DNA of 64,000 nt from Bacteroidota bacterium (lineage in GTDB: Bacteria; Bacteroidota; Bacteroidia; Palsa-965): positions 248,001-312,000 of the forward strand of contig JADBYT010000008.1 of NCBI GenBank assembly GCA_020402865.1. The letters run 5' to 3'. Of this stretch, positions 4,146-58,717 are shown in pieces. The notes below the pieces were generated by a model, which saw only the letters and a list, made by a program, of their open reading frames with translations, was not told the origin of the DNA and ran no database searches. Both the position numbers and the translations under genes were made by a program. Every line of letters begins with the position of its first letter. Position 1 is the stretch's first letter.

Positions 4146-7004
4146 ATGCCCGCCTTTCTCGAAAAAGTTGCCGATTTTATTCTTGCGCACCCTGCCGCAA
4201 AGCAGGGGCAGCTTTGCGTGGTATTGCCCAACCGCCGCGCCGGGCTTTTTTTGCGGCACTATCTTGCGCAACGTATTGATGAAGCGCAGTGGGCGCCGGC
4301 GGTGTTTTCGATTGAAGATTTTATTACCGAACTCACCGGCCTGCGCATGGCCGATCAGGCCGAGCAGCTTTTTGCGCTGTACAGCATTTACGCCACCGAC
4401 GAGGCCGGCAATGCCGAAACGTTTGACATGTTCAGCCGCTGGGCGCCGGCGCTGCTGAATGATTTCAGCGAAATAGACAATTACCTTGTGGATGCAAAGC
4501 AATTGTTTGGCAACCTGGCCGACATACGCAATATTGAAAACTGGAGCTTAGGCCAGACGCAGCTTACCGAATTTCAGAAGCAGTACATGAAATTCTGGGA
4601 GGCGCTGGGCCGCTGGTACTACAGCTTTACCGGACAACTGCGCAACGACGAACTGGCCACGCCCGGCATGGCCGCCCGCCACGCGGCCGAACACATTACG
4701 CAGCTTACCAATGCGCAGCCGTGGAGCCTGGTGGTGTTTGCCGGATTTAACGCACTTACTGCGGCCGAGGAAAAAATAATTTCGCGCCTGCGCAAAGCGG
4801 GCAAAGCCGAAATACTGTGGGATGCCGACCGCTACTACTACGCCGATGTGGCACAGGAAGCCGGACGTTTTTTGCGTAAAACAGGCCGCGAACTTTTTCA
4901 GCCCGCCACGCCCGGCGCACCCGAATTTGTGCACACCGAAGACACACTGGCCGGCGATAAAAAAACAATTACCGTGGTGGGCGTGGCCCGCCATGCCGGA
5001 CAGGCCCGCGCCGCTGCACATTTCCTTAAACAGCTGGATGCCGCGGCGCTGCAATCGCCCAAAACGGCAGTGGTGCTGGCCGACGAGCAACTGCTGCTGC
5101 CCGTGCTGCATGCCCTGCCCGAAGAAACCGGCCGTGTGAACATTACCATGGGCTATCCGCTCAGGCATACGGCCGTAGCTTCGCTCACCGACACGCTTTT
5201 CAGCCTGCACGAGCATGCCAGACGCTTCAGCATACGCACGCGCGAAGGCGAACTGAAATATTATCACACCGATCTTTCGCGCCTGCTGCGGCATCCGTGG
5301 GTGCGCATGCTGTTTGCCGCATCACACCTCACCGACAGGCTGGCCGATGCCATGGCGCGGCGCAATGTGGTGTTTATTGCACCCTCGCAGCTTATTGGCC
5401 TTCTTGAACATGTGGATGCCGCCGAAGCCGCGCTGCTGGCCGATTTGCTGCAGCCGTGGAATCAGGTGCAGGATGCGTTTGCAGGCATAAACCGCATGAT
5501 TGCACACCTGCGCAAACTGTTTACGCCCGCCAGCGACGATGATGCGCCTCCGCTTGATTATGAATTTCTCTTTCAGCTGAGCCGCATTGTAAACCGCATG
5601 CAAACACTTACGGCACGCTGGCCGTTTATGAATGATTTGCGCACGCTGCGTTTGCTCATGGCGCAACAGATAAGCCAGGCCGCACTGCCTTTTTACGGCG
5701 AACCGCTGGCCGGTTTGCAGGTAATGGGCTTGCTTGAAACGCGCACGCTTGATTTTGAAAATATCATTCTGCTTTCGGCCAACGAAAATATTCTGCCTTC
5801 GGGCCGTTCGCAGCATTCGTTTATTGTGTTTGATTTGCGCAAAGGCTTTGGCCTGCCGGTGTGGCACGAACGCGATGCGGTGTTTGCCTATCATTTCTAC
5901 CACCTTTTGCAACGCAGCAAAAACGTAGTGATTTTATACAACACCGAAAGCGACACCTTTGGCAGCGGCGAGCGCAGCCGTTTTGTAACCCAGCTGCTGC
6001 ACGAACTGCCGCAGGTGAGCCGCCACGCCACCATTAAAGAAATGCTGTTTGACAGCGGCGTGAAAACCGGCGATGCACCGCCACCCATTGTAGTGCAAAA
6101 AGATGAGGCTGTGCTTGAAAAGCTGCTGGCACTGGCGGCTTCGGGCCTCTCGCCATCGGCGCTGAACAGTTTCCGCGACTGCAGCCTGAAGTTTTATTTC
6201 AGCTACGTGGCACAACTGCGCGAGGCGGAAGAAGTGGAAGAAACCATAGGCGCAAACACACTGGGCACAGTTATACACGCCACGCTGGAGGCCTTGTACA
6301 AACCACACTTAGGCACGCCGCTTACGCCCGAACTTATTCTGACGCTGAAGGCAAAAGCGCCGGCCGTTTGCGAAAAAGAATTTGCCGTGGTTTGTCCGCC
6401 CGACGAAACCGGCTACGGCAAAAACCTGCTCGCCAAACGCATTGCCCTGCGCTACCTGAGCCGCTATTTTGATGCCGAGCACACACGCGTAACACAGCTT
6501 GGCAAAGTCAATATTACCGCTACCGTAGAAGCGCTTGAAGAAGAACTGCGCATACCCATAACCGTAAACGGCCACGAGATGATGCTGCGCGGCACGGCCG
6601 ACCGTATAGACCGCAACGGCAATGAAGTGCAGCTGATAGACTACAAAACCGGCCGCACCGCCGATAAAGAGCTGAAGTTTGCCGAATGGGACGAAATTGT
6701 GAGCAATGCCGAAATAGCCAAAAGCTTTCAGCTGCTCATGTATGCGCTGCTTTACCAGCGCCTGCATCCGGAAACGGAAACCATCACTTCGGGCATTGTA
6801 TCGTTCCGCGATTTGAAAAGCGGCGTGAAAAAAGTGCGCACCCCGTTGGGCGATATGCTGCGCAATGAGGTGCTTACGGAGTTTGAACTGCAGCTCCGCA
6901 ATTTGCTTCAACTGCTTGTTAATCCTGAAATTCCGTTTGCTCAAACTGATGATTGGGACAAATGCCGGATTTGTCCGTTTATACATGTGTGTAACCGGCA
7001 TTAG
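4146..7004 (+). CDS. AddB/RecB-like PD-(D/E)XK exonuclease with iron-sulfur staple
   Basis: A 952-residue protein resembling AddB subunits of double-strand-break-processing helicase-nucleases. The N-terminus (CVVLPNRRAGLFLRHYL) looks like a helicase domain lacking a GK[ST] Walker A. The C-terminal nuclease domain has GTVIHATLEAL with His711 and the catalytic LIDYKTGR with Asp832 and Lys834. One Cys at 679 (FRDCSLKFYF) plus Cys940, Cys943 and Cys949 (CRICPFIHVC) match the four-Cys [4Fe-4S] staple of the AddB nuclease. It probably resects DNA ends for RecA with an AddA/UvrD-type helicase, which is not adjacent here. Start chosen at ATG 4146, downstream of a good -7 element. Confidence 0.85.
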   Translation: MPAFLEKVADFILAHPAAKQGQLCVVLPNRRAGLFLRHYLAQRIDEAQWAPAVFSIEDFITELTGLRMADQAEQLFALYSIYATDEAGNAETFDMFSRWAPALLNDFSEIDNYLVDAKQLFGNLADIRNIENWSLGQTQLTEFQKQYMKFWEALGRWYYSFTGQLRNDELATPGMAARHAAEHITQLTNAQPWSLVVFAGFNALTAAEEKIISRLRKAGKAEILWDADRYYYADVAQEAGRFLRKTGRELFQPATPGAPEFVHTEDTLAGDKKTITVVGVARHAGQARAAAHFLKQLDAAALQSPKTAVVLADEQLLLPVLHALPEETGRVNITMGYPLRHTAVASLTDTLFSLHEHARRFSIRTREGELKYYHTDLSRLLRHPWVRMLFAASHLTDRLADAMARRNVVFIAPSQLIGLLEHVDAAEAALLADLLQPWNQVQDAFAGINRMIAHLRKLFTPASDDDAPPLDYEFLFQLSRIVNRMQTLTARWPFMNDLRTLRLLMAQQISQAALPFYGEPLAGLQVMGLLETRTLDFENIILLSANENILPSGRSQHSFIVFDLRKGFGLPVWHERDAVFAYHFYHLLQRSKNVVILYNTESDTFGSGERSRFVTQLLHELPQVSRHATIKEMLFDSGVKTGDAPPPIVVQKDEAVLEKLLALAASGLSPSALNSFRDCSLKFYFSYVAQLREAEEVEETIGANTLGTVIHATLEALYKPHLGTPLTPELILTLKAKAPAVCEKEFAVVCPPDETGYGKNLLAKRIALRYLSRYFDAEHTRVTQLGKVNITATVEALEEELRIPITVNGHEMMLRGTADRIDRNGNEVQLIDYKTGRTADKELKFAEWDEIVSNAEIAKSFQLLMYALLYQRLHPETETITSGIVSFRDLKSGVKKVRTPLGDMLRNEVLTEFELQLRNLLQLLVNPEIPFAQTDDWDKCRICPFIHVCNRH

Positions 7005-9565: not shown

Positions 9566-11908
9566 ATGTCTTTACGGTTTTTCTCTCTGCTGTGCGGGCT
9601 ACTTGCCTTCTCCTGCCTTTATTCACAACAAGCTGACTTCCCGTTGATGTATTCGCACGGGAAGATTCCACGAAAATTTCTTATCAAACCCGAAGCGGCT
9701 GCAAAAGAAGAAATTGATGCGATTAAAGCACAATCAAAACGACTCACTCAGGCCGAGGTCGATTACATCTATATACGGGAATATACGTTTAGTCATTATA
9801 TCACAGAAGGAATAATTACTTATGGCGATGAGATAAGCAATTTCAGCCAACGAATTGTAAACCGCTTACTTGTAAATGATCCTGAGCTTAACAAAAAAAT
9901 CAACGTTTACCTTCTTCGTTCGTATGAAGCCCGCCTCGTATCGTTCGACAACGGAATTATTTTTGTGAGTACCGGACTGTTCTCGAAAATTGAAAATGAA
10001 GCTCAATTAGCCTATCTGCTGGCGCGGGAAATTATTCATATCCGCGAAAACCATGCGCGTGAAAACTACCTGAATACATACTCAGGCGAGAGTAGAAATA
10101 TCCGATATCAGGACAGGGTTTCGGTTTTCTCGGCAGAGCAGGAAGCTGTTACAGATAAAAAGGCTATTCGACTTTTTATTGATGCAGGGTATGCAATGGA
10201 GGAAAGCGTGAAATCACTGACCTTACTTTCATCTTTCGACCAGTGTTTCGGGAATATCAAATTTGACATTTCCTTTTTTGAGCATGATGATTACATTTTC
10301 CCGCTAAACTATCAACTGCAAGAGCTTGTTTTGGCGCCCGCAGACTCGCTGGCCATGCAACTGTTCCCTAATCTTAGCAACCGGATAAACGATCTGAAAA
10401 GCTACATTCAACTGCTTCAGCAGGCAGAAGGGAAATCAGCATTCGAGAATATTTCACAGCTGCAAGTTTGGGCACGCGAGGAAACCATACGCATGTATTG
10501 TATTGATCAAAAAATAAATCATTCGATATACGGCGCCTATGTGATTTTACAAACCGACAGCCAGAATAAAGCCGCCCGCCGCACAATTGCCTATTGCCTT
10601 GCCATAAAAGCAATTTACGAATCGCCGGACCATGCAACCTATTCCACCAATGTAATTGTACTAGAAAAAAATGCCGCATTTAAAGATTATTCAAAAAAGA
10701 GCACTGGAAATAAAGACGAAGAAGTTGCTGAAAAAGTAACACAGGCAGGAGAAGCTCAGCGTGTAAATCATTTTCTCACCAGTATGAGTCACCCTGAACT
10801 TACAATTCTTGCGTTAGATCATAACTGGGGGCTATATCATCAATATGCTACTGAAACAGATGCACTGAAAAGAGTTAAAATGCTGATGAATATCCTAAAA
10901 GCGAATTACGATCTCGGACTGATGGAGTTTTCGCACACTGCTTACCAACCTGTGTTGAATGAAAAAAGTGCCCCGGAAAATTTAACTCAGAACCCGCTTC
11001 CGAAACCAACAGGCAAACCTATAATTACGTTAGAACCACTGCAAGCAAAAGACGCATGGGGTACATACAAGGAAACTCAGGATAATAATCTGGAACAAAA
11101 GATGCAAGGGTATTCGATAAACGACCCTAACGGAGAAAAAGACAAAACATCAAAAATAATTCCCCCTGTAAAAGCAGTAACCTGGCGGAAAGCCGATCCT
11201 GAAAAACAATATGAGTCTGTAATATACAACTATTACGAATATGCGTTTGTAAGCTACATTCATGATGCTGAATTTATTAAGGCGTTTAATCGATCAGCAG
11301 ATAAAATTACAATGGAAAAAACATACAGGGATTTTACCCCTTATGTGGTGTATGAAATGAAGCACAACTCCGGATTGGGAAAAGATAAATTTATACCCGG
11401 TTACATTTACGGTTTAGAAAGACAATATAATTCACGCCTGGAACAGCTTACAATTAACAATGACGGATCGGAAGAAGTACGGAAATATCAGAAAGATGCA
11501 GTCTTCTCTTATTCAGACAACTATGCTAATGCTGCGTTTTACAGTGTACATAATTTAACTGAAAACGACACATTTGCATACTCCTATTACTGTATTTATC
11601 AAACCATACTCAGTGATTTATACAACCATCTTAAAGAAGACCGGTATATAGCACCCGACATTTGCGGAGTGCTCAGGAATAATGTGACCATTTTCTTTAA
11701 AACAAACATCATACTTTCCAGCTACGTCATTAACCAGTCACAATCTGATGGTCGATCAGCCTCCCGCATAACCACTACAGGCATAGACATGGATACCGGA
11801 CGAATAGTACTTTACTGGTATGAGGAAAACAGCATGCTTGCTAAAAGTTATTTGTTAAATACACATTATAGTAACATCAGAAAGAAAATAAGCTACCAGC
11901 CCAAATAA
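9566..11908 (+). CDS. Secreted M48-like protein, catalytically degenerate (REIIH)
   Basis: A 780-residue protein with a signal peptide (cleavage near YSQ) followed by HGKIPRKF, an N-terminal motif shared with its four paralogs in this window. The M48 peptidase region (about residues 50-230) keeps STGLF, ENEAQLAYLLA and the ExxxD motif with its Glu (EAVTD), but the zinc motif HExxH has become REIIH (bases 10025-10039), losing the first His ligand. The C-terminal ~500 residues share EAQRVNHFL..LALDHNW and DMDTG motifs with the paralogs and match no family I know. It is probably periplasmic and inactive or non-canonical. The second paralog follows, with its ATG 111 bases downstream. Confidence 0.8.
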   Translation: MSLRFFSLLCGLLAFSCLYSQQADFPLMYSHGKIPRKFLIKPEAAAKEEIDAIKAQSKRLTQAEVDYIYIREYTFSHYITEGIITYGDEISNFSQRIVNRLLVNDPELNKKINVYLLRSYEARLVSFDNGIIFVSTGLFSKIENEAQLAYLLAREIIHIRENHARENYLNTYSGESRNIRYQDRVSVFSAEQEAVTDKKAIRLFIDAGYAMEESVKSLTLLSSFDQCFGNIKFDISFFEHDDYIFPLNYQLQELVLAPADSLAMQLFPNLSNRINDLKSYIQLLQQAEGKSAFENISQLQVWAREETIRMYCIDQKINHSIYGAYVILQTDSQNKAARRTIAYCLAIKAIYESPDHATYSTNVIVLEKNAAFKDYSKKSTGNKDEEVAEKVTQAGEAQRVNHFLTSMSHPELTILALDHNWGLYHQYATETDALKRVKMLMNILKANYDLGLMEFSHTAYQPVLNEKSAPENLTQNPLPKPTGKPIITLEPLQAKDAWGTYKETQDNNLEQKMQGYSINDPNGEKDKTSKIIPPVKAVTWRKADPEKQYESVIYNYYEYAFVSYIHDAEFIKAFNRSADKITMEKTYRDFTPYVVYEMKHNSGLGKDKFIPGYIYGLERQYNSRLEQLTINNDGSEEVRKYQKDAVFSYSDNYANAAFYSVHNLTENDTFAYSYYCIYQTILSDLYNHLKEDRYIAPDICGVLRNNVTIFFKTNIILSSYVINQSQSDGRSASRITTTGIDMDTGRIVLYWYEENSMLAKSYLLNTHYSNIRKKISYQPK

Positions 11909-11983
11909 ACATACCTGCTACTGAGGAAATCCATGTTTACATTGCGCGTCAATACCAACCCCGCTACACCCGCACGAATTCAT

Positions 11984-12012
11984 TTTGAATTCTGCACTTT
12001 TTTGCATATTTG
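11984..12012 (+). promoter_or_regulatory. Possible internal promoter before the second M48 paralog
   Basis: TTTG at 11984-11987 and CATATTTG at 12005-12012 (seven of eight matches to TAnnTTTG) are separated by 17 bases. The ATG at 12020 follows closely, supporting it over an in-frame ATG at 11933 that lies upstream of this element. Confidence 0.5.
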
Positions 12013-12019
12013 TAACAAG

Positions 12020-14473
12020 ATGCTTAACCTCAAGAACAGCACCTCTTATTCATTTCTGGTTTTGTTTTGCGCACTGTTGCAAGGGCTTTCTGCACAGGCA
12101 CAATACAATGACTATTCATTAGTAAAGTCAAAAGGCGATATTCCCGCAGACTTTATTCAGCCGGTTGATGTGCGTACAAAAAACAGCATTCAACGGCTGG
12201 GGCTTCAATCGGTAAATGCGCAGAATTATGTCTGGGCCTCAGAAAGCGTATTTTCCTATTATGTGAATTCGGGTATGGTTACTTTGGGCGACAGTGTCAG
12301 CCTGCTTTGTACGCAGATAATTGACCGGCTCCTTGTTTCAAACAAAGCGTTGCGACAGAACCTCAATGTGTATCTCCTTCGTTCAAGCAAGCCAGAAATT
12401 TATACGTTCTACAATGGCAATATGCTTGTAAGTACGGGCATACTTGCCCGCACTGCCAATGAAGCGCAACTGGCCTACCTGATTGCACGCGAGATTATTG
12501 TGTACAGAAATATATTTGATGGCCGGCAGATTACTTCCACTAAGCTCAATTTCCAAAAAGACTCTCTTGATTTAGAATCAGCAGTTTTTACACGCTCGGA
12601 AGAAGAAGAAAGCGCCGCTGACCGCCAAGCCTTAAAAATGTATCTCGAAGCCGGATATGATGCTTCTGAGGCGATCACCGCGTTAAAACTGCTCTACAAC
12701 CCTGAAGCCAGCTTTGATGATGTGCCTTTTGATCTGAGTTTTTTTGAGCACGGTGACTATGTATTTCCGCCATCTTACCACTTAAAAGAACTGGTAGCCG
12801 GAGATACAAACTCGTTTAATGAACAAACTAACCTTCAGCTTTCACGACGAATTACTATTTTAAAATCACTCATCCAACAAGTTGAGGCTCCCGGAAATAA
12901 ATTTATTTTACAAACAGAGGCCGAGTTTATTTCGCTCAGCACACTGGCGAAACAGGAAGTAATGCGGCAATTCTTTATTGATCAGCAGCATGAGTACGCC
13001 ATTTATTCGGCATACCTGCTCCTGAAAAAAGACTCCACCTATCAGCCTGCCAAAAGTATTATTGCCCATAGTTTAAATACACTCGCCATCTACAAAACAC
13101 AATCAATACCGGAACCACCTCCCTTAATTTATATCGTTCCGCTGAAACCGGTTGTTAATTCTGTAAATACACCACCTGCTGTATATACAATTCAGCCCAC
13201 TTCTAATATTGCTGGCGAAGCTCAGCACATCAATTACCTTCTTCACCAGTTAAGTTATACCGAATTTTACATTCTCGCTCTTGACTGGCAATGGAAAAAC
13301 CTGAAAGCGTTAAAGAAAGCTGATAAATCAATTGAGCAGACACAGGTGAAACGATTGATGTGGATGTTAAAACACAATTCGGGTTTTTCCCATGTGGCAT
13401 TTTCTCCCGCTCCATTTAAACCAATTTCGCTGGGTGAAAAATATGAAGTAAGGGAAACAACTTCATTTACTTTGAACAGAAAGCCTTCCGTAACACTTAC
13501 GCCACCGTCGCAGCTTTTAAACAAATCGGTAATTGGAAGTGGTGCCCTTAGGGAAAAGCCCAAAGAAGCGCCTGAATTTTCTGCTACACCTAAAAAAAAC
13601 ATCGAACAGATCAGTACACAATACGACATCAAAAACAGTGAAGATGTGTATCAATCAAACACAAATACACTTCCTTTAAAAACAACTTATTTCAACGTAA
13701 AAAGCAGCCGCCTGATTTCCGATGAAAAGGCTATTGTACAATGGAAAGGTATGCCTGATGATTCGGCGTATAGTTATGCCTATGTATATTATCTCTATGC
13801 ATTTACCAGCCACATGAAAGACAGCACGTTTGTGGAAACATTCAGAAAGGCCGGGCCGCAAGGGAATGAAACACCATTGTCAGACTACAGTATGCGAAAT
13901 CGAATTGTATATGATAAAAGAAGTAAATACGGACTAGGAGCCGACACGGTTCTGATTGGGCGCATGCTTGCGGTGAATTACAGCGAAATTAAGCGAACCG
14001 GAACTATTGCTATGGGTGATGAACTTTTAGATGAATATACGCAGTACCAGAGGGAGGCTCTTCAGGTTGCTGCCGGGTATGAAAAGTGCTATCCGTTTAT
14101 ACCGGATTTATCTTCGATAAGCAGTACTGATGTTGCAAGCTATACCAATTGGTGCATGGTTAAAACCTGGCAACGCGAACATGATAATTATTCTGCATAC
14201 GGATTCTCACTACCTACATTTGCCTATACCAGTCTGGGCGATTCAGTAAGCAGGGCATTTCACACTCCTTACATTACCTATACCTACGCTGTGAGCTACC
14301 TGATGCGCTCTACGGTTCCCAAATCGCAGCTTGTTTCTCTGGTGTATGAATTACAAACCGGATACTTGGTGATGTATCTGCATGAAGAAAACAAACGTAC
14401 AGCCACCTTTGATATTCAGAAATGGTATTACCGGTTTTTGCTGGAAAAAACCAAATACCCGCGTTTGGATTAA
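12020..14473 (+). CDS. Secreted M48-like protein, catalytically degenerate (REIIV)
   Basis: 817 residues from the ATG at 12020, where a typical signal peptide begins (MLNLKNSTSYSFLVLF, cleavage near QAQ); an upstream ATG at 11933 would bury the signal peptide. It is homologous along its length to the other four M48 paralogs: GDIPADF after the signal peptide, NGNMLVSTGILA, NEAQLAYLIA, and a C-terminal GEAQHINYLL..LALDWQW. The HExxH motif is REIIV (12488-12502): both His ligands are gone, whereas the motif Glu and the downstream ExxxD (ESAAD) remain. This should not bind catalytic zinc in the usual way. The next paralog starts 27 bases after its stop, so they are probably co-transcribed. Confidence 0.8.
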   Translation: MLNLKNSTSYSFLVLFCALLQGLSAQAQYNDYSLVKSKGDIPADFIQPVDVRTKNSIQRLGLQSVNAQNYVWASESVFSYYVNSGMVTLGDSVSLLCTQIIDRLLVSNKALRQNLNVYLLRSSKPEIYTFYNGNMLVSTGILARTANEAQLAYLIAREIIVYRNIFDGRQITSTKLNFQKDSLDLESAVFTRSEEEESAADRQALKMYLEAGYDASEAITALKLLYNPEASFDDVPFDLSFFEHGDYVFPPSYHLKELVAGDTNSFNEQTNLQLSRRITILKSLIQQVEAPGNKFILQTEAEFISLSTLAKQEVMRQFFIDQQHEYAIYSAYLLLKKDSTYQPAKSIIAHSLNTLAIYKTQSIPEPPPLIYIVPLKPVVNSVNTPPAVYTIQPTSNIAGEAQHINYLLHQLSYTEFYILALDWQWKNLKALKKADKSIEQTQVKRLMWMLKHNSGFSHVAFSPAPFKPISLGEKYEVRETTSFTLNRKPSVTLTPPSQLLNKSVIGSGALREKPKEAPEFSATPKKNIEQISTQYDIKNSEDVYQSNTNTLPLKTTYFNVKSSRLISDEKAIVQWKGMPDDSAYSYAYVYYLYAFTSHMKDSTFVETFRKAGPQGNETPLSDYSMRNRIVYDKRSKYGLGADTVLIGRMLAVNYSEIKRTGTIAMGDELLDEYTQYQREALQVAAGYEKCYPFIPDLSSISSTDVASYTNWCMVKTWQREHDNYSAYGFSLPTFAYTSLGDSVSRAFHTPYITYTYAVSYLMRSTVPKSQLVSLVYELQTGYLVMYLHEENKRTATFDIQKWYYRFLLEKTKYPRLD

Positions 14474-17023: not shown

Positions 17024-19399
17024 ATGAAAAAATACCTTATTCTCCCGATTTTATTTATTTCTTCGCTCGCACTGGCGCAGCCTGCCGCTCCTGTGCGTGT
17101 GGGGCCGCTTCAGCCTGCCGGTAAACTCCCCGCCAGTTTTACCACGCCCAGTCACCTGATTGCCCAACAAGAGGCCGAACGCCGCAAAGCCGCCGGCGAT
17201 CCGATGGACGAAGGCGAAATGGAATTTACCACCGAGGTAAATTACTATTCGCAGCAACGCCTTACATCCGGCCTCATCCTTTACAACGATCCGATGAGCA
17301 CCTACATTACCGATGTAGCCCGGCTGCTGCTGAAAGACGATACTGCGCTGTTCAACAAGCTGCGCTTCTATGTGTATAAAACACCCGAGCCAAATGCATT
17401 TACATCGGCCACGGGTGTAATTATGATTACCGTAGGTATGCTGGCGCAGGTTGACAATGAGGCTCAGCTCGCCTACATCCTTTCGCATGAAATAATGCAC
17501 TACAAGCAGAAACACATGCTGAAAGGCTTCCGTAAACGCGAAAAGCTGGAAGAGCAAACCGGCAATGCGCCAAGCTATATGTGGAGCCGCAGTTACTTTC
17601 AGTTCACACGTGAGCATGAACTTGAAGCGGATGCAATGGGGTTTGATCTCTACAGCAAATCGAACTACCGGGCACACGAAGCCCTGCGCATGTTTGATGT
17701 GCTTGAATATTCGGATTTACCGTTTGACGATATGACGTTTGACACGCTGTGGTTTAACCGTGGCGATATGAAAGTACCCGGCGGCTATTTCCGTAAAGAG
17801 GTGGATCCGATTTATTCGGATGACAACTACGAAGACCGCAACAGCACACACCCCAACGTGCGCAAACGCCGTATGGCCCTTATCTCGTCGGTTGACAGTG
17901 TGAGTGAAGAAGGCCGGCAGCTTTACATTATTTCGAAAGAAAAGTTTATTCAGTTCCGCGAGCGTTCGCGTTATGAAGTGTGCCGCCTGCACATGCTTGT
18001 GCGCGATTATCCCGAAGCCATTTACTGCGCCTACATGCTGCTGCAGAAGCATCCGAACGATATTTATCTCGAAAAGATGATCGGTTATGCGCTGTTTAAC
18101 CTTACCACCTACAGCCAGACCAAGAGCCAGGGCAATATGTTTTTCGACCCCTCGCAAATGTTTATGAGCTATCGTGGCGGCCGTTATTCAAGACTCAGCA
18201 CGGGCGGTTTTTATCGTTTGCCCAACTGGGAAAAAATGACCGGACAGCAGCAGCAGCTGTTTCACCTGTTTGATAAACTGGAGCCCGACGAATTAACTGT
18301 ACTTACCCTTACCTACAACTGGGATTTGTATCGTGCCGATACTACCGACAGGTTTCAGGCGCAGCTTTGCGACAGTTTGTTTTCCATGCTGGTGTTTAAG
18401 CAAAACCTGCCACGCAGCTATTTCTCCACAATTTCGGCTGAAGCTGCGCGACAGAAACTGCGTGACGACTCATTGCAGCGTGCAAAAGATGTGGGCGAAA
18501 CCGGTGACTCGAAATACTCTCGACTCGACAAATTCAAACTCAATTCAGACAAAGAGCGTTTTGTAAAGTTTGCGTTTGTGGATTTACTCAAAGACTCGCT
18601 TTTTATTGAACGTTTCAATTATTACACCGCGCAACGCACCAGTTTTGTGGATGCCGACGAAACACCCGAATGGCTGCTTCGTCGCGGAATGAGCAAGAAG
18701 GAAAGGGAGGAATGGAAAAAATACCGTGAAGAATCAGGGTGTGAAATAGACAGGCTCGTGGTGATTTGTCCGGAATATGAAACATACCAGCAAAAGAAAC
18801 GCAAGGAGCGTGAACTGGAGCAGGATTATACGGCAAGTGAAAACGGACAGGTATCGCTTTGCGGCGTGATTCGCCGTGAGGCTTCAGCTCAAGGCGTACA
18901 AACCATTTTACTTTCACCGTTTGAAATGGACAGCCTCGACACTGATTCGTTTGCGGCGATGGCCACATTGAATGAATGGTTTTTTGAACGCCTGCGTCAT
19001 GGAAACAACCGTTACACCATGACGTTGAACAACAAACACGAAACTGATTCAATTGCGGCCTTGTACAACGTGCGCTACATCATGTTTACTGCGGTAGAAT
19101 CGGCCACACGCAAACGCATCCAGCGCCCGGTGCTTTACACTGTAACCTGTGTTATTTTCCCTCCTGCGCTTTACAAACTGTTCATACCGCAGGTACGCTA
19201 TCAGTTCGAATCGGCCGTGCTTGATTTGAAAACCGGCGAAGTGATTTATTACAATTACGAGATAAAGCGCAAAGGCAAGGAAAAAGAGCAGACCAACAAA
19301 TACTACAACAAGCTCTTCAAGAAACTGAAAGCGAAAAAACTGCCCAAACCTCTACCGCCCAAAGAAGAAGTACCACCCGAAGAAGCGCATAAACAGTAA
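17024..19399 (+). CDS. Secreted M48-family zinc metallopeptidase (intact HEIMH)
   Basis: 791 residues, signal peptide with cleavage near ALAQ, then AGKLPASF, the shared mature N-terminus. The peptidase domain has GMLAQVDNEAQLAYILS, HEIMH (17486-17500) and HELEADAMG, so all zinc ligands and the catalytic Glu are present. The C-terminal domain is homologous to the other paralogs (QQQLFHLFDKL..LTYNW; LDLKTGEVIYY) and ends in a Lys/Pro/Glu-rich tail. A -7-like TATCTTTA lies at 16972-16979. The 3' end overlaps the next gene by one base (TAATG), so the two are translationally coupled. Probably acts in the periplasm or at the outer membrane. Confidence 0.87.
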   Translation: MKKYLILPILFISSLALAQPAAPVRVGPLQPAGKLPASFTTPSHLIAQQEAERRKAAGDPMDEGEMEFTTEVNYYSQQRLTSGLILYNDPMSTYITDVARLLLKDDTALFNKLRFYVYKTPEPNAFTSATGVIMITVGMLAQVDNEAQLAYILSHEIMHYKQKHMLKGFRKREKLEEQTGNAPSYMWSRSYFQFTREHELEADAMGFDLYSKSNYRAHEALRMFDVLEYSDLPFDDMTFDTLWFNRGDMKVPGGYFRKEVDPIYSDDNYEDRNSTHPNVRKRRMALISSVDSVSEEGRQLYIISKEKFIQFRERSRYEVCRLHMLVRDYPEAIYCAYMLLQKHPNDIYLEKMIGYALFNLTTYSQTKSQGNMFFDPSQMFMSYRGGRYSRLSTGGFYRLPNWEKMTGQQQQLFHLFDKLEPDELTVLTLTYNWDLYRADTTDRFQAQLCDSLFSMLVFKQNLPRSYFSTISAEAARQKLRDDSLQRAKDVGETGDSKYSRLDKFKLNSDKERFVKFAFVDLLKDSLFIERFNYYTAQRTSFVDADETPEWLLRRGMSKKEREEWKKYREESGCEIDRLVVICPEYETYQQKKRKERELEQDYTASENGQVSLCGVIRREASAQGVQTILLSPFEMDSLDTDSFAAMATLNEWFFERLRHGNNRYTMTLNNKHETDSIAALYNVRYIMFTAVESATRKRIQRPVLYTVTCVIFPPALYKLFIPQVRYQFESAVLDLKTGEVIYYNYEIKRKGKEKEQTNKYYNKLFKKLKAKKLPKPLPPKEEVPPEEAHKQ

Positions 19400-19896
19400 T
19401 GCCCAACGATTTTGAAGCCATCCACCGCCGCTTTCGCACTGCCCTTGAAAAAGGCACACCGGGAGCGGCGGCGCTTGCTACACTATGCGACGAGCTGGGG
19501 CTTATACGCACGGGCTCAGTCTTTCGAATGGCGCCCGAAATAAGTCAGGCCTACGCCATTGCCTCCGGCCACAAACCCATCGAAATTCTCATCAGCCCCG
19601 AAATCCTTGCCGATACATTCGACTTTGGTCTGCTCACACGCATACTCGCACACGAGCTTTTGCACGTGCAGCAGCGCACGCGCATATTCCCCATGAAAGA
19701 CCACAATGAGCGCGAATTTGTGGCCTATGCCGATACGCTTCTCCGCACTGATCTTCCGCCTATCGGCTCATTGTATGTGAAAAAGGAGTTTTTGAAAAAG
19801 GGATTGAGTTATTATCCGCAATTATCAAAGTGGAATCAGTGGTGGTACCGGGATGTGAAGGCGGAACTGGAAAAATATGGAAAGATGCTGGGGTAA
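19399..19896 (+). CDS. Small HELLH-motif putative metallopeptidase coupled to the M48 gene
   Basis: 165 residues, no signal peptide. The centre holds HELLHVQQ (HExxH at 19651-19665) followed about ten residues later by EREFVAYAD, whose Glu could be a third zinc ligand. The HExxHxxQ pattern is reminiscent of short gluzincin-like domains such as DUF4157, but the rest of the protein does not let me name a family. Its start codon overlaps the stop of the M48 gene by one base, so the two products are likely made together although only one is exported. Whether it is an active peptidase is unknown. Confidence 0.65.
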   Translation: MPNDFEAIHRRFRTALEKGTPGAAALATLCDELGLIRTGSVFRMAPEISQAYAIASGHKPIEILISPEILADTFDFGLLTRILAHELLHVQQRTRIFPMKDHNEREFVAYADTLLRTDLPPIGSLYVKKEFLKKGLSYYPQLSKWNQWWYRDVKAELEKYGKMLG

Positions 19897-20582: not shown

Positions 20583-21284
20583 TTACAATAAAATCCCTAC
20601 TCCGAAAAACACCGAAAACGCCCGGCGCATACCGAAATCGCGCTGAAAATCGGATGCGGTGAAAACCGGATCTTCGTTTGCACTGATGTTCAGCACATAC
20701 GGTACACTGAAACGCAAACCGGTGTTGGCCACCACACGTTCCCAAAACAACATTTGTGTACCAAAGGCAAACTGCGCCTGTAATACGGTTTGTGTTTCGG
20801 GCTTGCTGCCGTTTATGTAAAGCGGTACATCAAGAGTGTTGGTTACATCGTTATTGTATTTGGCCTGTGCGTACACAAGCTCGGCATCCCAGAATTTACC
20901 AATGGGTGCAATGCCTCCACGGCCTTTACGGAAAGTGCGGAACACCATCGACATCGTTTGCCCGTCGAGTTTGGTGCCAAAATATTCTTCAGCCGCGCCG
21001 TTGAGCGAATAGGTATTGCCTACATCCATATTAAAACGATTGTAGCTCACCCCCAGCTGCGTGCGCCGGCTGATGATACAATGCAGCGCACCGCCGTACT
21101 GATAATTATAAACAAAACGCTGGTCAGAAAGCAAACCAAACGGCGTGGACGAAGCAAAATTGAATGGCATGTATGAACCCTCGGCCTGCACAATGATGCG
21201 GTGACCAAGATAACCGCCTTTGCCTTGTGCAAAGGATGTATAGGAAGCTGCAAGCAGCAGCGTGATAAAGAGAATACGTTTCAT
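20583..21284 (-). CDS. Outer-membrane beta-barrel protein linked to the fifth M48 peptidase
   Basis: 233 residues with a signal peptide (MKRILFITLLLAASYTSFAQ) and barrel-like strands: HRIIVQAEGSYMPFNF, RTQLGVSYNRFNMDV, AQFAFGTQMLFWERVV, NTGLRFSVPYVLNI and a last strand RAFSVFFGVGILL. No enzymatic motif. It begins six bases after the M48 gene stops and is followed six bases later by the lipoprotein gene, so the three are almost certainly one transcript. A partnership between an exported peptidase and a barrel is suggestive of barrel assembly or quality control but unproven. Confidence 0.72.
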   Translation of the reverse strand: MKRILFITLLLAASYTSFAQGKGGYLGHRIIVQAEGSYMPFNFASSTPFGLLSDQRFVYNYQYGGALHCIISRRTQLGVSYNRFNMDVGNTYSLNGAAEEYFGTKLDGQTMSMVFRTFRKGRGGIAPIGKFWDAELVYAQAKYNNDVTNTLDVPLYINGSKPETQTVLQAQFAFGTQMLFWERVVANTGLRFSVPYVLNISANEDPVFTASDFQRDFGMRRAFSVFFGVGILL

Positions 21285-21290
21285 GGCTGC

Positions 21291-23615
21291 TTACTTTTTG
21301 GGGTTGGAGAGTTGACGCATGAGATCATACACATGCAAACGCAAACGCGATTTGGTGTGACGCTGATTACTCATTTCTGTATTCCGGCTGTACACCAGCT
21401 TACCGGTCGATACATCGTACACGATTGTCACAAAGGTTACGCTTTCTGTGGGTGTAAACAGACGGTAAATTACATGCGGTGCAATGGGCAGAATGAGTGC
21501 GCCCGCAGCACGTATGGCCTGCACACGTCGTTTATCGCGATACACATAGCAGGCTGTCCACATAAAATAATTGGTGCCGTACTTTTTGGCCAGCGCCTGC
21601 ATGTCTTCCTGTGAGTATGGCATGAGTTTAGACGGACGCACATCTTCGCGCACGGAAAGCCAGCGGCTGGCGGTATTCATATCGTTAAATGCCGCAGCTG
21701 ATGATGTATCAAGCACAGTCTGATCAAGCAGCGTAAGGTTGATGTTGCACAATGCGGCCGAACGCCGGAGCTCGGCCACAAATTCGGCACGGCCTTCAAG
21801 CGAGGCTGTAATATCAATCGGCACCCGCTCTTTACGCTGATCATACACGGCAAACTGCGGATCCACAAGTACCACACGCTGTATGCCCTGCGGCCCCAGC
21901 AGTTCCGACTTCCGGCGGCGGCGGTATCTGCGCTCTTCAGTTCCGCTCATCTGGTCGAGAATTTCGTTTACCTGCTTCACACTGTCGGCAAACGCGGTCG
22001 ATTTTTTAAACATCTCCACAAAACGGGCATCCTTCAACTCCTCAATAAATGCAAACGACCAGTATTCCACATCGGTATAGATGGAATCAATATCATAATT
22101 ATCCACCGCGCACTGAAAACGATCGCGGGGCGAATCAGACTTCGGCTTTTTCTTCAGTGTAGTATCGGCCGCAGCAATATTACCCAACCGGATCCAGAGC
22201 GAATCGCTGCTCTGGAAATCACTTTGCTTCATCTCGTGGAAAAAGGTAAGCTCGCGGAATAGTCCGGTTGTCCACGTGGCTACATCAGCATCGTTCGGAT
22301 ACTTCAAATGTACAGCCCAGGCATAACGCAACGCCAGCACATTCCACGCTTCCGACTCGGTTTTATTTACCAGTCTGTTAAAGCGGCCCATCTCGCCGGT
22401 GGGCTTTTCACTGCTGCCCATATCACCACCGGTAATCACAAAAATATTTCCCAGCAATGACGCCAGATCGCCAAAATCGAATGTCATGTTTTTATCCAGT
22501 ACACTGCCGTAAAGGGCGCGTGCCATTTCTTTTTCGAGATACGGATTGCCGGGATAATACTGCAGCATGGCATAGGTCATGTAAACAGCATCGCGGTAGT
22601 TGCCTTCATCGCTGTGCAGGGCGCATTCTTCAAAACGTGCCATCATGCGCACACGGTAAAACTGTTTTTCCGACACAAGAAAGTACGCGCCCGTTGTATC
22701 GGTTGCGCTTTTAAACTTGCGCATCATGCCTCTGCGGCGCTTGCCTACACTGGGGTGCGTAGCCAGATCGTTGTCGCCGTCTTCTTCGTCAACCTTGTAG
22801 GGCTTAATTGTGTCGGCCTGATATTTTGACGGAAGCAGGAAATACTGGCCTTCAAAAAATGAGCGGGTAAAGGTGGTGTCGGTAAACGGGAAATCAGCCT
22901 GCGCAAGCAAATCGAAACCTTTTACCGCCGCATGCGGATCGTAGCCCGACTTGAGCATGAGTTCAAATCCTTCTTCGTCGGCTTGTGTTTCCTGCGTGCG
23001 CGAGTAGCTGTGTTTTTTGTAAAAACGGTTGTTCAGCGTAATGCCTTCATACTGCTCGGTGCCTGTGCGCATTTTTTCGGTTTCGAGAAAACCTGTAACC
23101 ACATGGCGACGCTTGAAGTGAATAATTTCGTGCGCCAGTACAAACGCCAGCTCGGCTTCATTCCGCACGCGGGTAAGCAGCCCCACAGTTACAAAAATTA
23201 CGCCCTGATCAGTGGCAAATGCGTTAACAACCGGCGTGCGCAGAATATAGAAATGCAGCTTTTTGCGCAACTCCGGATCGTGTACCAGCAACGAGTCGGC
23301 CACCTGATTTACAAAAAGCCCCATCGAATCATTCACCAGCACTTCGCCACTGAAACGCATCTGATCAACCTGAAAATTGGTGAGCAGATAAAATTCGTCC
23401 TCCGCATCCTGTATAGACTGCTGCTGGCTTTTATCTACCTTCTCAAGGTCGTTTTTATACTTTTCGGCTGTGGGGGTCACAAAATCAGTCGGCAGCGGAC
23501 CATTGGAAACCGGCCGGCGGAAATTGCGCATATCGGGCAGCTGGGCAAACAACGCCGAAGCAAACAAACAGCCAATAAATGCAGCAAGCAGCTGCAAACG
23601 GGGAGAGTTTATCAT
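21291..23615 (-). CDS. Secreted M48-family zinc metallopeptidase (intact HEIIH), reverse strand
   Basis: 774 residues from the ATG at 23615, where the signal peptide begins (MINSPRLQLLAAFIGCLFA, cleavage near FAQ); an upstream in-frame codon at 23660 lies before the probable promoter. Shared mature motif NGPLPTDF; peptidase domain with GLLTRVRNEAELAFVLA, HEIIH (23118-23132) and ETQADEEGF, so the zinc site is complete. The C-terminal domain matches the paralogs (EMGRFNRLVNK..LALRYAW; YDVSTGKLVYS). It is the most divergent member and the only one on the minus strand, heading an operon with a beta-barrel and a lipoprotein. Confidence 0.86.
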   Translation of the reverse strand: MINSPRLQLLAAFIGCLFASALFAQLPDMRNFRRPVSNGPLPTDFVTPTAEKYKNDLEKVDKSQQQSIQDAEDEFYLLTNFQVDQMRFSGEVLVNDSMGLFVNQVADSLLVHDPELRKKLHFYILRTPVVNAFATDQGVIFVTVGLLTRVRNEAELAFVLAHEIIHFKRRHVVTGFLETEKMRTGTEQYEGITLNNRFYKKHSYSRTQETQADEEGFELMLKSGYDPHAAVKGFDLLAQADFPFTDTTFTRSFFEGQYFLLPSKYQADTIKPYKVDEEDGDNDLATHPSVGKRRRGMMRKFKSATDTTGAYFLVSEKQFYRVRMMARFEECALHSDEGNYRDAVYMTYAMLQYYPGNPYLEKEMARALYGSVLDKNMTFDFGDLASLLGNIFVITGGDMGSSEKPTGEMGRFNRLVNKTESEAWNVLALRYAWAVHLKYPNDADVATWTTGLFRELTFFHEMKQSDFQSSDSLWIRLGNIAAADTTLKKKPKSDSPRDRFQCAVDNYDIDSIYTDVEYWSFAFIEELKDARFVEMFKKSTAFADSVKQVNEILDQMSGTEERRYRRRRKSELLGPQGIQRVVLVDPQFAVYDQRKERVPIDITASLEGRAEFVAELRRSAALCNINLTLLDQTVLDTSSAAAFNDMNTASRWLSVREDVRPSKLMPYSQEDMQALAKKYGTNYFMWTACYVYRDKRRVQAIRAAGALILPIAPHVIYRLFTPTESVTFVTIVYDVSTGKLVYSRNTEMSNQRHTKSRLRLHVYDLMRQLSNPKK

Positions 23616-23621
23616 AGCTCG

Positions 23622-23652
23622 TAAATATACATATTGCCGGTCGGGTTTAAAA
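23622..23652 (-). promoter_or_regulatory. Possible promoter of the reverse-strand M48 operon
   Basis: On the minus strand TATATTTA (23629 to 23622) matches TAnnTTTG at seven of eight positions, with TTTT (23652 to 23649) 19 bases upstream as a weak -33. The ATG at 23615 follows within seven bases. Confidence 0.4.
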
Positions 23653-23699
23653 ACCGGCAAAATCGTTTATCAACCACCTGTAAGCGTCGAAAATCAAGT

Positions 23700-25373: not shown

Positions 25374-26285
25374 TCATCTTACCTTACCAAACCCGAAAAC
25401 AAGTTTGAAATAAAATTTTGTATTGAACGTATCATAATAAAACGGGCCTTCAAAACGCTCCGCAAATACAGGCTCTATGGGTTGAGCCGGGGAAAGATAA
25501 AGATCACCGGTATTGGTAACAAACGCATAAATATCATCAAACGGCAACGGACTTTCTTCTTCAGGCAAGAGGTAAAGCGACTGCACGCCATTTTCGGTAA
25601 TTACCTTGCCGTAGGGTGAAATGCCGTGCATGGCTCTGAAACTTTTTTGAAGTTGCGGAATGCCGAAATAGACATCACAAAACACAAGTTTACCCCGGGC
25701 ATTTATCTTTCTTACCCCCGCACGCACCACAGGCTGCATCCAAAACTGCATTGTATTACCACTTATTTGCTGCGAAAAAAACACACCACCCGCCAATGCC
25801 TGCCAGCCTAAACCCACATGAAAACCTTTGTTTTTCCAGGCCTTCCTCCCCGACCCGGCACCAAAATCGTACGACAAAAAAACAGGCAGCGAAAATGTGC
25901 CAAATGCAGATGTAATGTTAAAATCATTCAGGTCAAATGCAGGCGCCGCATTCAACGACAATGCGGAATAAGGCCCAGCAATCAATAACGGATAACGCAG
26001 GTTGCAGGTAGCCCCGAGCAGAATACGCCCGCCATTGGGCACAAACCGGTCAACCTTTATAAACGAATGCACATACGGCGGTAAAAAAGGCTGCGTATCA
26101 TAACGAAAAAGCGGATAATATGCGGGCATACGTACTGCTGGACCGCTTATTGCGCCGGAGAGAAAGGAAAAACCCCATACATGTGTAAGGCGTGCCTGCG
26201 CCGCAAGTGAAACACCACCGCAACACATGAAGAGCACAAGCAGCACACGAAAACGCTGACTACATAAATAGCAGTTTGTAGTCAT
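25374..26285 (-). CDS. Outer-membrane protein paralog 1 of 3
   Basis: 303 residues, signal peptide near the N-terminus (LLVLFMCCGGVSLAAQ), then barrel-like segments shared with the next two genes: FSFLSGAISGPA, ILLGATCNLRYPLL, SAFGTFSLPVFLSYDF, GFHVGLGWQALAGG, and a final FYFKLVFGFGKV. The GFHVGLG[WY] motif and the closing YFK[IL]V[FL]G strand are the clearest family marks. No known family is recognised. Its ATG overlaps the stop of paralog 2 by one base (TGATG), so it is the third gene of a coupled operon. Confidence 0.7.
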   Translation of the reverse strand: MTTNCYLCSQRFRVLLVLFMCCGGVSLAAQARLTHVWGFSFLSGAISGPAVRMPAYYPLFRYDTQPFLPPYVHSFIKVDRFVPNGGRILLGATCNLRYPLLIAGPYSALSLNAAPAFDLNDFNITSAFGTFSLPVFLSYDFGAGSGRKAWKNKGFHVGLGWQALAGGVFFSQQISGNTMQFWMQPVVRAGVRKINARGKLVFCDVYFGIPQLQKSFRAMHGISPYGKVITENGVQSLYLLPEEESPLPFDDIYAFVTNTGDLYLSPAQPIEPVFAERFEGPFYYDTFNTKFYFKLVFGFGKVR

Positions 26286-57967: not shown

Positions 57968-58717
57968 ATGTCATCATCACCCTTCCAACTTACCGGTAAA
58001 ACAATTCTGGTAACCGGCGCATCGTCAGGCATTGGCCGGCAGGTGTGCATTTCGGCGGCCGCATTTGGTGCCCGTGTTATGCTTAGCGGTCGTAATGAAG
58101 CGAGACTGCACGAAACACTTCAGCAGCTTGACGGCACAAACCACCAATTGTTTGCGGCCGACCTGACACAGGCCGACGACAGAGATACATTGATAAAACA
58201 GCTTCCTGCACTTGATGGATTTGTACACAGTGCGGGCATTGTAAAAGCATTTCCGACCCGATTCATCGATCAGTCGAAATTGACTGAAATGGAGGTTAAT
58301 TTTGAAGCACCGGCCTTGCTTACAGCCGGGCTGATGCGCCAGAAAAAGCTTAACCGGGGTGCGTCGCTGGTTTACCTTTCGTCAATTTCGGGGCAGCATC
58401 CGCCCAAAGGCGGCGCCATGTACGGTGCTTCCAAAGCAGCCCTCGAATCGTATGTAAAAGTGCTTGCCCGCGAAACTGCCGCACAACAAATCAGGGCCAA
58501 CTGCATTTCGCCGGGCATGGTAAAAACTCCGCTTTACGATCAGGTAGAAGAAGAATACTCCAAGCCCGAACTCGATAAACACATGGCGCGCTATCCGCTG
58601 GGCGTGGGCTACCCCGAAGATGTAGCCAATGCGGCTATCTATCTGCTTTCGCCAGCTTCGCGTTGGGTTACCGGAATTAATATTATTTTAGATGGCGGCT
58701 TCCTGCTCGGCGACTAA
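57968..58717 (+). CDS. Short-chain dehydrogenase/reductase
   Basis: 249-residue cytoplasmic NAD(P)-dependent oxidoreductase of the classical SDR type. TILVTGASSGIGRQV carries the TGxxxGIG cofactor loop; the catalytic Ser lies in YLSSISGQH and the Tyr-x3-Lys in YGASKAAL. The C-terminus ITGINI-like WVTGINIILDGGFLLGD is typical of FabG-like enzymes. The start is the ATG at 57968. Its stop overlaps the next ATG by one base, so it belongs to the glycosyltransferase operon, where it may modify a sugar or lipid. Confidence 0.88.
   Translation: MSSSPFQLTGKTILVTGASSGIGRQVCISAAAFGARVMLSGRNEARLHETLQQLDGTNHQLFAADLTQADDRDTLIKQLPALDGFVHSAGIVKAFPTRFIDQSKLTEMEVNFEAPALLTAGLMRQKKLNRGASLVYLSSISGQHPPKGGAMYGASKAALESYVKVLARETAAQQIRANCISPGMVKTPLYDQVEEEYSKPELDKHMARYPLGVGYPEDVANAAIYLLSPASRWVTGINIILDGGFLLGD

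Follow-up and report, generated by a model that had tools for sequence, protein, structure and literature searches.

A small HExxH protein behind an M48-like gene in a Bacteroidota genome probably belongs to an unnamed family of putative cytosolic gluzincin-like peptidases

RESULTS

A small gene overlaps the end of an exported M48-like gene

The window analyzed here is a 64,000-nucleotide stretch of DNA from a Bacteroidota genome, in which a short open reading frame begins on the last base of a gene for an exported M48-like protein. The features considered are the following.

17024..19399, + strand: neighboring exported M48-like gene (PF01435, E=1.6e-15), judged a neighbor only and not a partner; orthologues without the small gene in genomes G001, G003, G004, and G005
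19397..19401, + strand: TAATG stop/start overlap of the M48-like gene with the small gene, read in the sequence; not conserved in genome G006
19399..19896, + strand: small protein of 165 amino acids with an ATG start, a putative cytoplasmic gluzincin-like zinc peptidase; full-length homologues in other genomes, no Pfam or NCBIfam model at cutoff
19651..19665, + strand: HELLH codons (residues 85 to 89), predicted to supply two zinc ligands and the general base; HExxH in 63/63 strong copies read
19705..19716, + strand: NERE codons (residues 103 to 106), with E104 or E106 as the predicted third ligand; NERE in 63/63 strong copies read

The first-pass annotation had described a 165-residue protein with HELLHVQQ and a downstream EREFVAYAD, and translation of 19399–19896 bears this out, with HELLHVQQ at residues 85 to 92 and NEREFVAYAD at residues 103 to 112. 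It had also described the protein as lacking a signal peptide. Consistent with this, Kyte-Doolittle averaging over 19-residue windows revealed neither a hydrophobic export stretch nor a membrane one (maximum mean of 1.2, at residue 61), and the protein is probably cytoplasmic, judging from its sequence. The gene is single copy in its own genome, where two more local matches (E of 0.27 to 0.58) are noise, and scanning the protein against Pfam and NCBIfam yielded no model at its cutoff.

The upstream gene is, as first annotated, the fourth in a row of M48-like genes beginning at 9566, 11933, 14501, and 17024. The reported one-base TAATG overlap was also confirmed, the last A of the TAA stop codon (19397–19399) being the first base of the ATG (19399–19401). 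M48-like genes of the window encode proteins of about 780 to 850 amino acids, most with a signal-like start. The 17024 gene begins with a hydrophobic signal-like stretch, and all but one of the four M48-like genes upstream of the small gene have hydrophobic starts (means of 1.6 to 1.9); the exception, the 11933 gene, scores 0.5 when read from its first start codon. The overlap is real but ordinary, since similar junctions occur elsewhere in the window, at 58717 (TAATG) and at 26285 (TGATG). In G006, the sole other copy found in the genus, a gap of approximately 40 to 50 bases to the M48 gene takes the place of the overlap.

The M48-like genes of this genome vary among themselves. Two of the five in the window (9566–11908 and 11933–14473) have lost the zinc motif and carry AREIIH and AREIIV versus HExxH, which suggests that they encode pseudo-enzymes within an expanding cluster of M48 paralogues. 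A cluster of further M48-like matches to the 17024 protein lies outside the window, on a different contig of this genome (G000, contig C11, 122478–126926). Separately, an exported-looking protein of 217 to 259 amino acids is encoded directly behind an M48-like gene (20583–21284 with 21291–23660), and this pairing is also present in G003, G004, G006, and G008 (L041, L042, L044, and L051), with an overlap of a few bases in three of these four. By eye, it appears better conserved than the pairing of the small gene with M48.

Residue conservation and structure models point to a gluzincin-type zinc site

Relatives of about the same length as the small protein were roughly 22 to 41% identical and were aligned in A4, which comprised 61 rows (the window protein, the G006 protein, and 59 others). 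Residues H85, E86, H89, Q92, N103, E104, R105, E106, A109, Y110, P120, F131, and Y138 are invariant in A4, whose row selection pattern itself required HExxH and E..[AS][YFH]. Not one of the 63 strong copies read lacks HExxH or NERE; these copies are the 61 A4 rows, a longer relative (L057), and L082. The last of these was the sole strong unbroken copy lost to the pattern; it keeps HExxH and NERE and has Gly at position 109. Left out of both A4 and the neighbor count described below were L058, L059, and L060 (weak, local matches), L057 (longer), L082, and L117 (a Riemerella copy in two pieces).

The putative zinc peptidase motif proposed at first is thus above chance, and the retention of HExxH and NERE in every strong copy points to a zinc site of the gluzincin type. 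In such a site, one zinc would be held by H85 and H89 of HELLH together with E106 or E104 on the following helix, and E86 would activate water for peptide-bond cleavage inside the cell. E106 is favored as the predicted third ligand by an ExxA spacing that the M48 genes also have (E199, A202, and D203 in A5), and E104 is favored by alignment with projannalysin.

AlphaFold models, built from two sequences, had a mean pLDDT of 57 for the window protein and 72 for the G006 relative. The G006 model begins with two helices, followed by three strands, a short helix, the helix with HExxH, the helix with Glu, and further helices, an order that would be the one expected of a zincin core, with the strands of low confidence. 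Both models put NERE on the helix that follows the one with HELLH and are too weak for the geometry of the glutamate. Searching with both weak models (Foldseek and VIA-align) returned mostly helical rows with no significant match and no zincin among the matches listed, and a search of a viral structure library gave nothing significant.

The family is widespread in some Bacteroidota and patchy within them

Among 59 genomes, the window's own and its relatives, the only further copy was that of G006, from the same genus and 41% identical. A contig scan with the window protein as a single query found no further copy, and a scan with a two-row alignment found the G006 contig only. Profiles reached further. 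In the class, the two-row profile matched 7 genomes out of 395, G000 and G006 included. A seven-row profile matched 10 of 395; its matches in G007, G115, and G152 are local and weak. The G007 match (E of 0.005), seen also in a search of 12 genomes, lies in a 453-amino-acid frame that does not encode a full-length relative. Matches were found in 15 of 395 genomes of a phylum sample that overlaps the class samples. The relatives are concentrated in a few groups. They were present in 54 of 249 genomes of one genus (g60) and in 92 of 148 genomes of one family (f22), with a family-wide sample of f54 contributing 1 of 299 genomes, that one also of genus g60. The f22 family is probably Weeksellaceae, since plasmid records of Riemerella anatipestifer carry a 62%-identical copy next to sufD. 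Matches in plasmid records came from four Riemerella records. The R. anatipestifer copy beside sufD (L117, about 4820–5330) is in two pieces and is absent from the PLSDB gene table.

Members are small, single-domain proteins of about 165 to 175 amino acids, and most are stand-alone proteins of 166 to 180; the relative in G256 is longer (252 amino acids) and carries both HExxH and NERE. Copies that are split or carry stop codons were seen in G729, G917, G837, and G884, so the gene is dispensable. In a tree, the window and G006 proteins sit on a long branch apart from the other 59 A4 members, which would make recent transfer of the small gene from the f22 or g60 lineages unlikely.

A mobile or phage origin was considered and rejected. 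No relatives were found in viral contigs or phage records. A PHROGs search with alignment A2 gave weak families of unknown function (best E of 0.0011), and the one match from PADLOC was weak (E of 0.03). Scanning the 61 A4 members gave best E values of 0.0058 with Pfam and 0.0034 with NCBIfam, both to unrelated models. The accessible text of the literature searched on minigluzincins, eCIS core/DUF4157, and HExxH proteins held no description of this small-protein family.

Homologues at 59 loci outside the genus have no M48-like neighbor

The first-pass annotation had seen in the small protein a cytoplasmic partner for the exported M48 peptidase and had proposed a survey of whether its homologues always sit beside M48 genes. 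To this end, loci were fetched for 30 of the 57 g60 matches and 30 of the 95 f22 matches, with L082 omitted, and the neighbors at 60 loci (some 1.5 kb to either side) were compared by blastp (E<=1e-3) with the five M48 paralogues of the window. An M48-like neighbor within about 1.5 kb was found at 0 of 59 loci outside the genus and at 1 of 60 overall, that of G006, from the same genus as the window. Full-length homologues instead adjoin unrelated genes in many genomes. An M48 domain profile run on the same neighbors found none, even in G006, and adds little because the G006 flank reaches just the C-terminal portion of the M48 gene. In longer stretches from G252, G297, G227, and G200 (about 6 kb on each side), the M48 domain profile matched nothing at E<=1e-3.

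Conversely, an orthologue of the 17024 M48 gene, 49 to 54% identical, is present in G001, G003, G004, and G005, and the small gene left no trace in the stretches fetched around this orthologue (E<=10, frames of at least 80 residues). The G005 genome is 66% complete, and its M48 locus itself was read.

A dedicated cytoplasmic partner, whether a chaperone, a quality control protein, or a processing factor of the exported peptidase, would account for the small gene being adjacent to M48 and in the same orientation in the window and in G006, its two carriers in the genus (in G006 it also lies directly behind the M48 gene), and for the one-base overlap in the window. Against this, G006 lacks the overlap, the two proteins would reside in different compartments, all 59 neighborhoods examined outside the genus are without an M48-like gene, and four genomes have the M48 orthologue without the small gene. 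On the 60 loci examined, we reject the partnership as a general rule; as an explanation of the small gene it seems very improbable, and the proposed link is probably just gene neighborhood.

A gene that we take to be SufD-like precedes 14 of 30 f22 copies, and genes that are presumably CsaA-like and/or exonuclease-like follow 16 of 30. In g60, a presumed RadA-like gene lies upstream in 14 of the 29 copies counted. These names were assigned by recognition of the sequences, and the only annotated neighbor among them is sufD, in Riemerella.

Neighborhoods that hold no conserved substrate or partner, together with a patchy and dispensable gene and a small, soluble-looking product, would also suit a non-proteolytic, zinc-binding cytoplasmic regulator or sensor, in which the HExxH fold binds a metal or a partner. 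We consider this unlikely, if not implausible, since every one of the 63 strong copies read retains the catalytic glutamate E86, which would be superfluous in a mere metal site.

DISCUSSION

The small protein belongs to a conserved family that is probably best read as an unnamed group of small, cytosolic, minigluzincin-like putative peptidases, with the place of the window gene behind an M48 gene being an accident. Under this reading, the position of the gene would reflect local gene order, and the two genes would share a transcription unit at most. Of the ideas in the first-pass annotation, that of a different type of gluzincin stands as the best reading, and that of a cytoplasmic partner for an exported M48 peptidase is not supported. 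A bolder version, in which a minigluzincin-like cytosolic lineage new at the family level in Bacteroidota has been recruited in the window's genus to the precursors or turnover of the exported M48 paralogues, strikes us as very remote indeed.

The M48-partner reading was a tempting case of guilt by association, which is corrected here. What takes its place is a compact putative metallopeptidase family, common in some Bacteroidota and without a name in the Pfam and NCBIfam releases searched, whose members could be directly expressed and assayed.

Several known systems resemble the small protein around its predicted active site. M48 (PF01435) proteins share with it an HExxH followed by ExxA on the next helix, but the small protein has no PF01435 match, and hhalign gave a probability of 15% over only 13 columns around HExxH. 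DUF6782 (PF20573), a putative metallopeptidase family, is similar over residues 69 to 103 around HExxH; the score, however, is 15.5 bits versus a cutoff of 27, and 1 of 61 members matched at E<=0.1.

A likeness in the active-site helix is offered by eCIS_core/DUF4157 (PF13699), with its HEL.HV.QQ-like pattern. The available text of one report (PMC8213781) describes DUF4157 as also a putative metallopeptidase and as a core domain of eCIS systems, with a role still to be studied. In G152, a 504-amino-acid frame (L060, 1423–2934) encodes an eCIS_core domain (E of 4.8e-32) and then a second HExxH with PEREFLAFY, a stretch that the small-protein family profile matches at E=9.8e-4. The small protein might, then, be a domesticated relative of HExxH domains of the injected-effector or eCIS_core type. 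The link is worth keeping because the second HExxH of the G152 protein is accompanied by so similar a motif, and the 252-amino-acid relative in G256 and the eCIS_core scores, though weak (E=0.06 for the window protein; best E of 0.035 among the 61 A4 members, with 6 of 61 at E<=0.1), are in keeping with it. However, the window protein scores 14 bits versus a Pfam cutoff of 22 and matches over about 15 residues around HExxH, and most copies are stand-alone proteins among housekeeping-like genes. Furthermore, no eCIS model was found among the Pfam matches of ten neighboring proteins in the window. We regard this derivation as doubtful and improbable.

The known proteins that the small protein would most resemble are the minigluzincins (MEROPS M95), which include projannalysin (4jix) and proabylysin. 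Projannalysin was the best profile match among solved structures, with E values (0.06 with A2 and 0.12 with A4) that are not significant, in an alignment that spans HExxH and the following Glu. The solved chain has 112 residues versus 165 for the small protein, and the invariant NERExxAY motif sets the small-protein family apart; like the small protein, however, minigluzincins are small and soluble, with HExxH followed by a Glu some 13 to 17 residues on.
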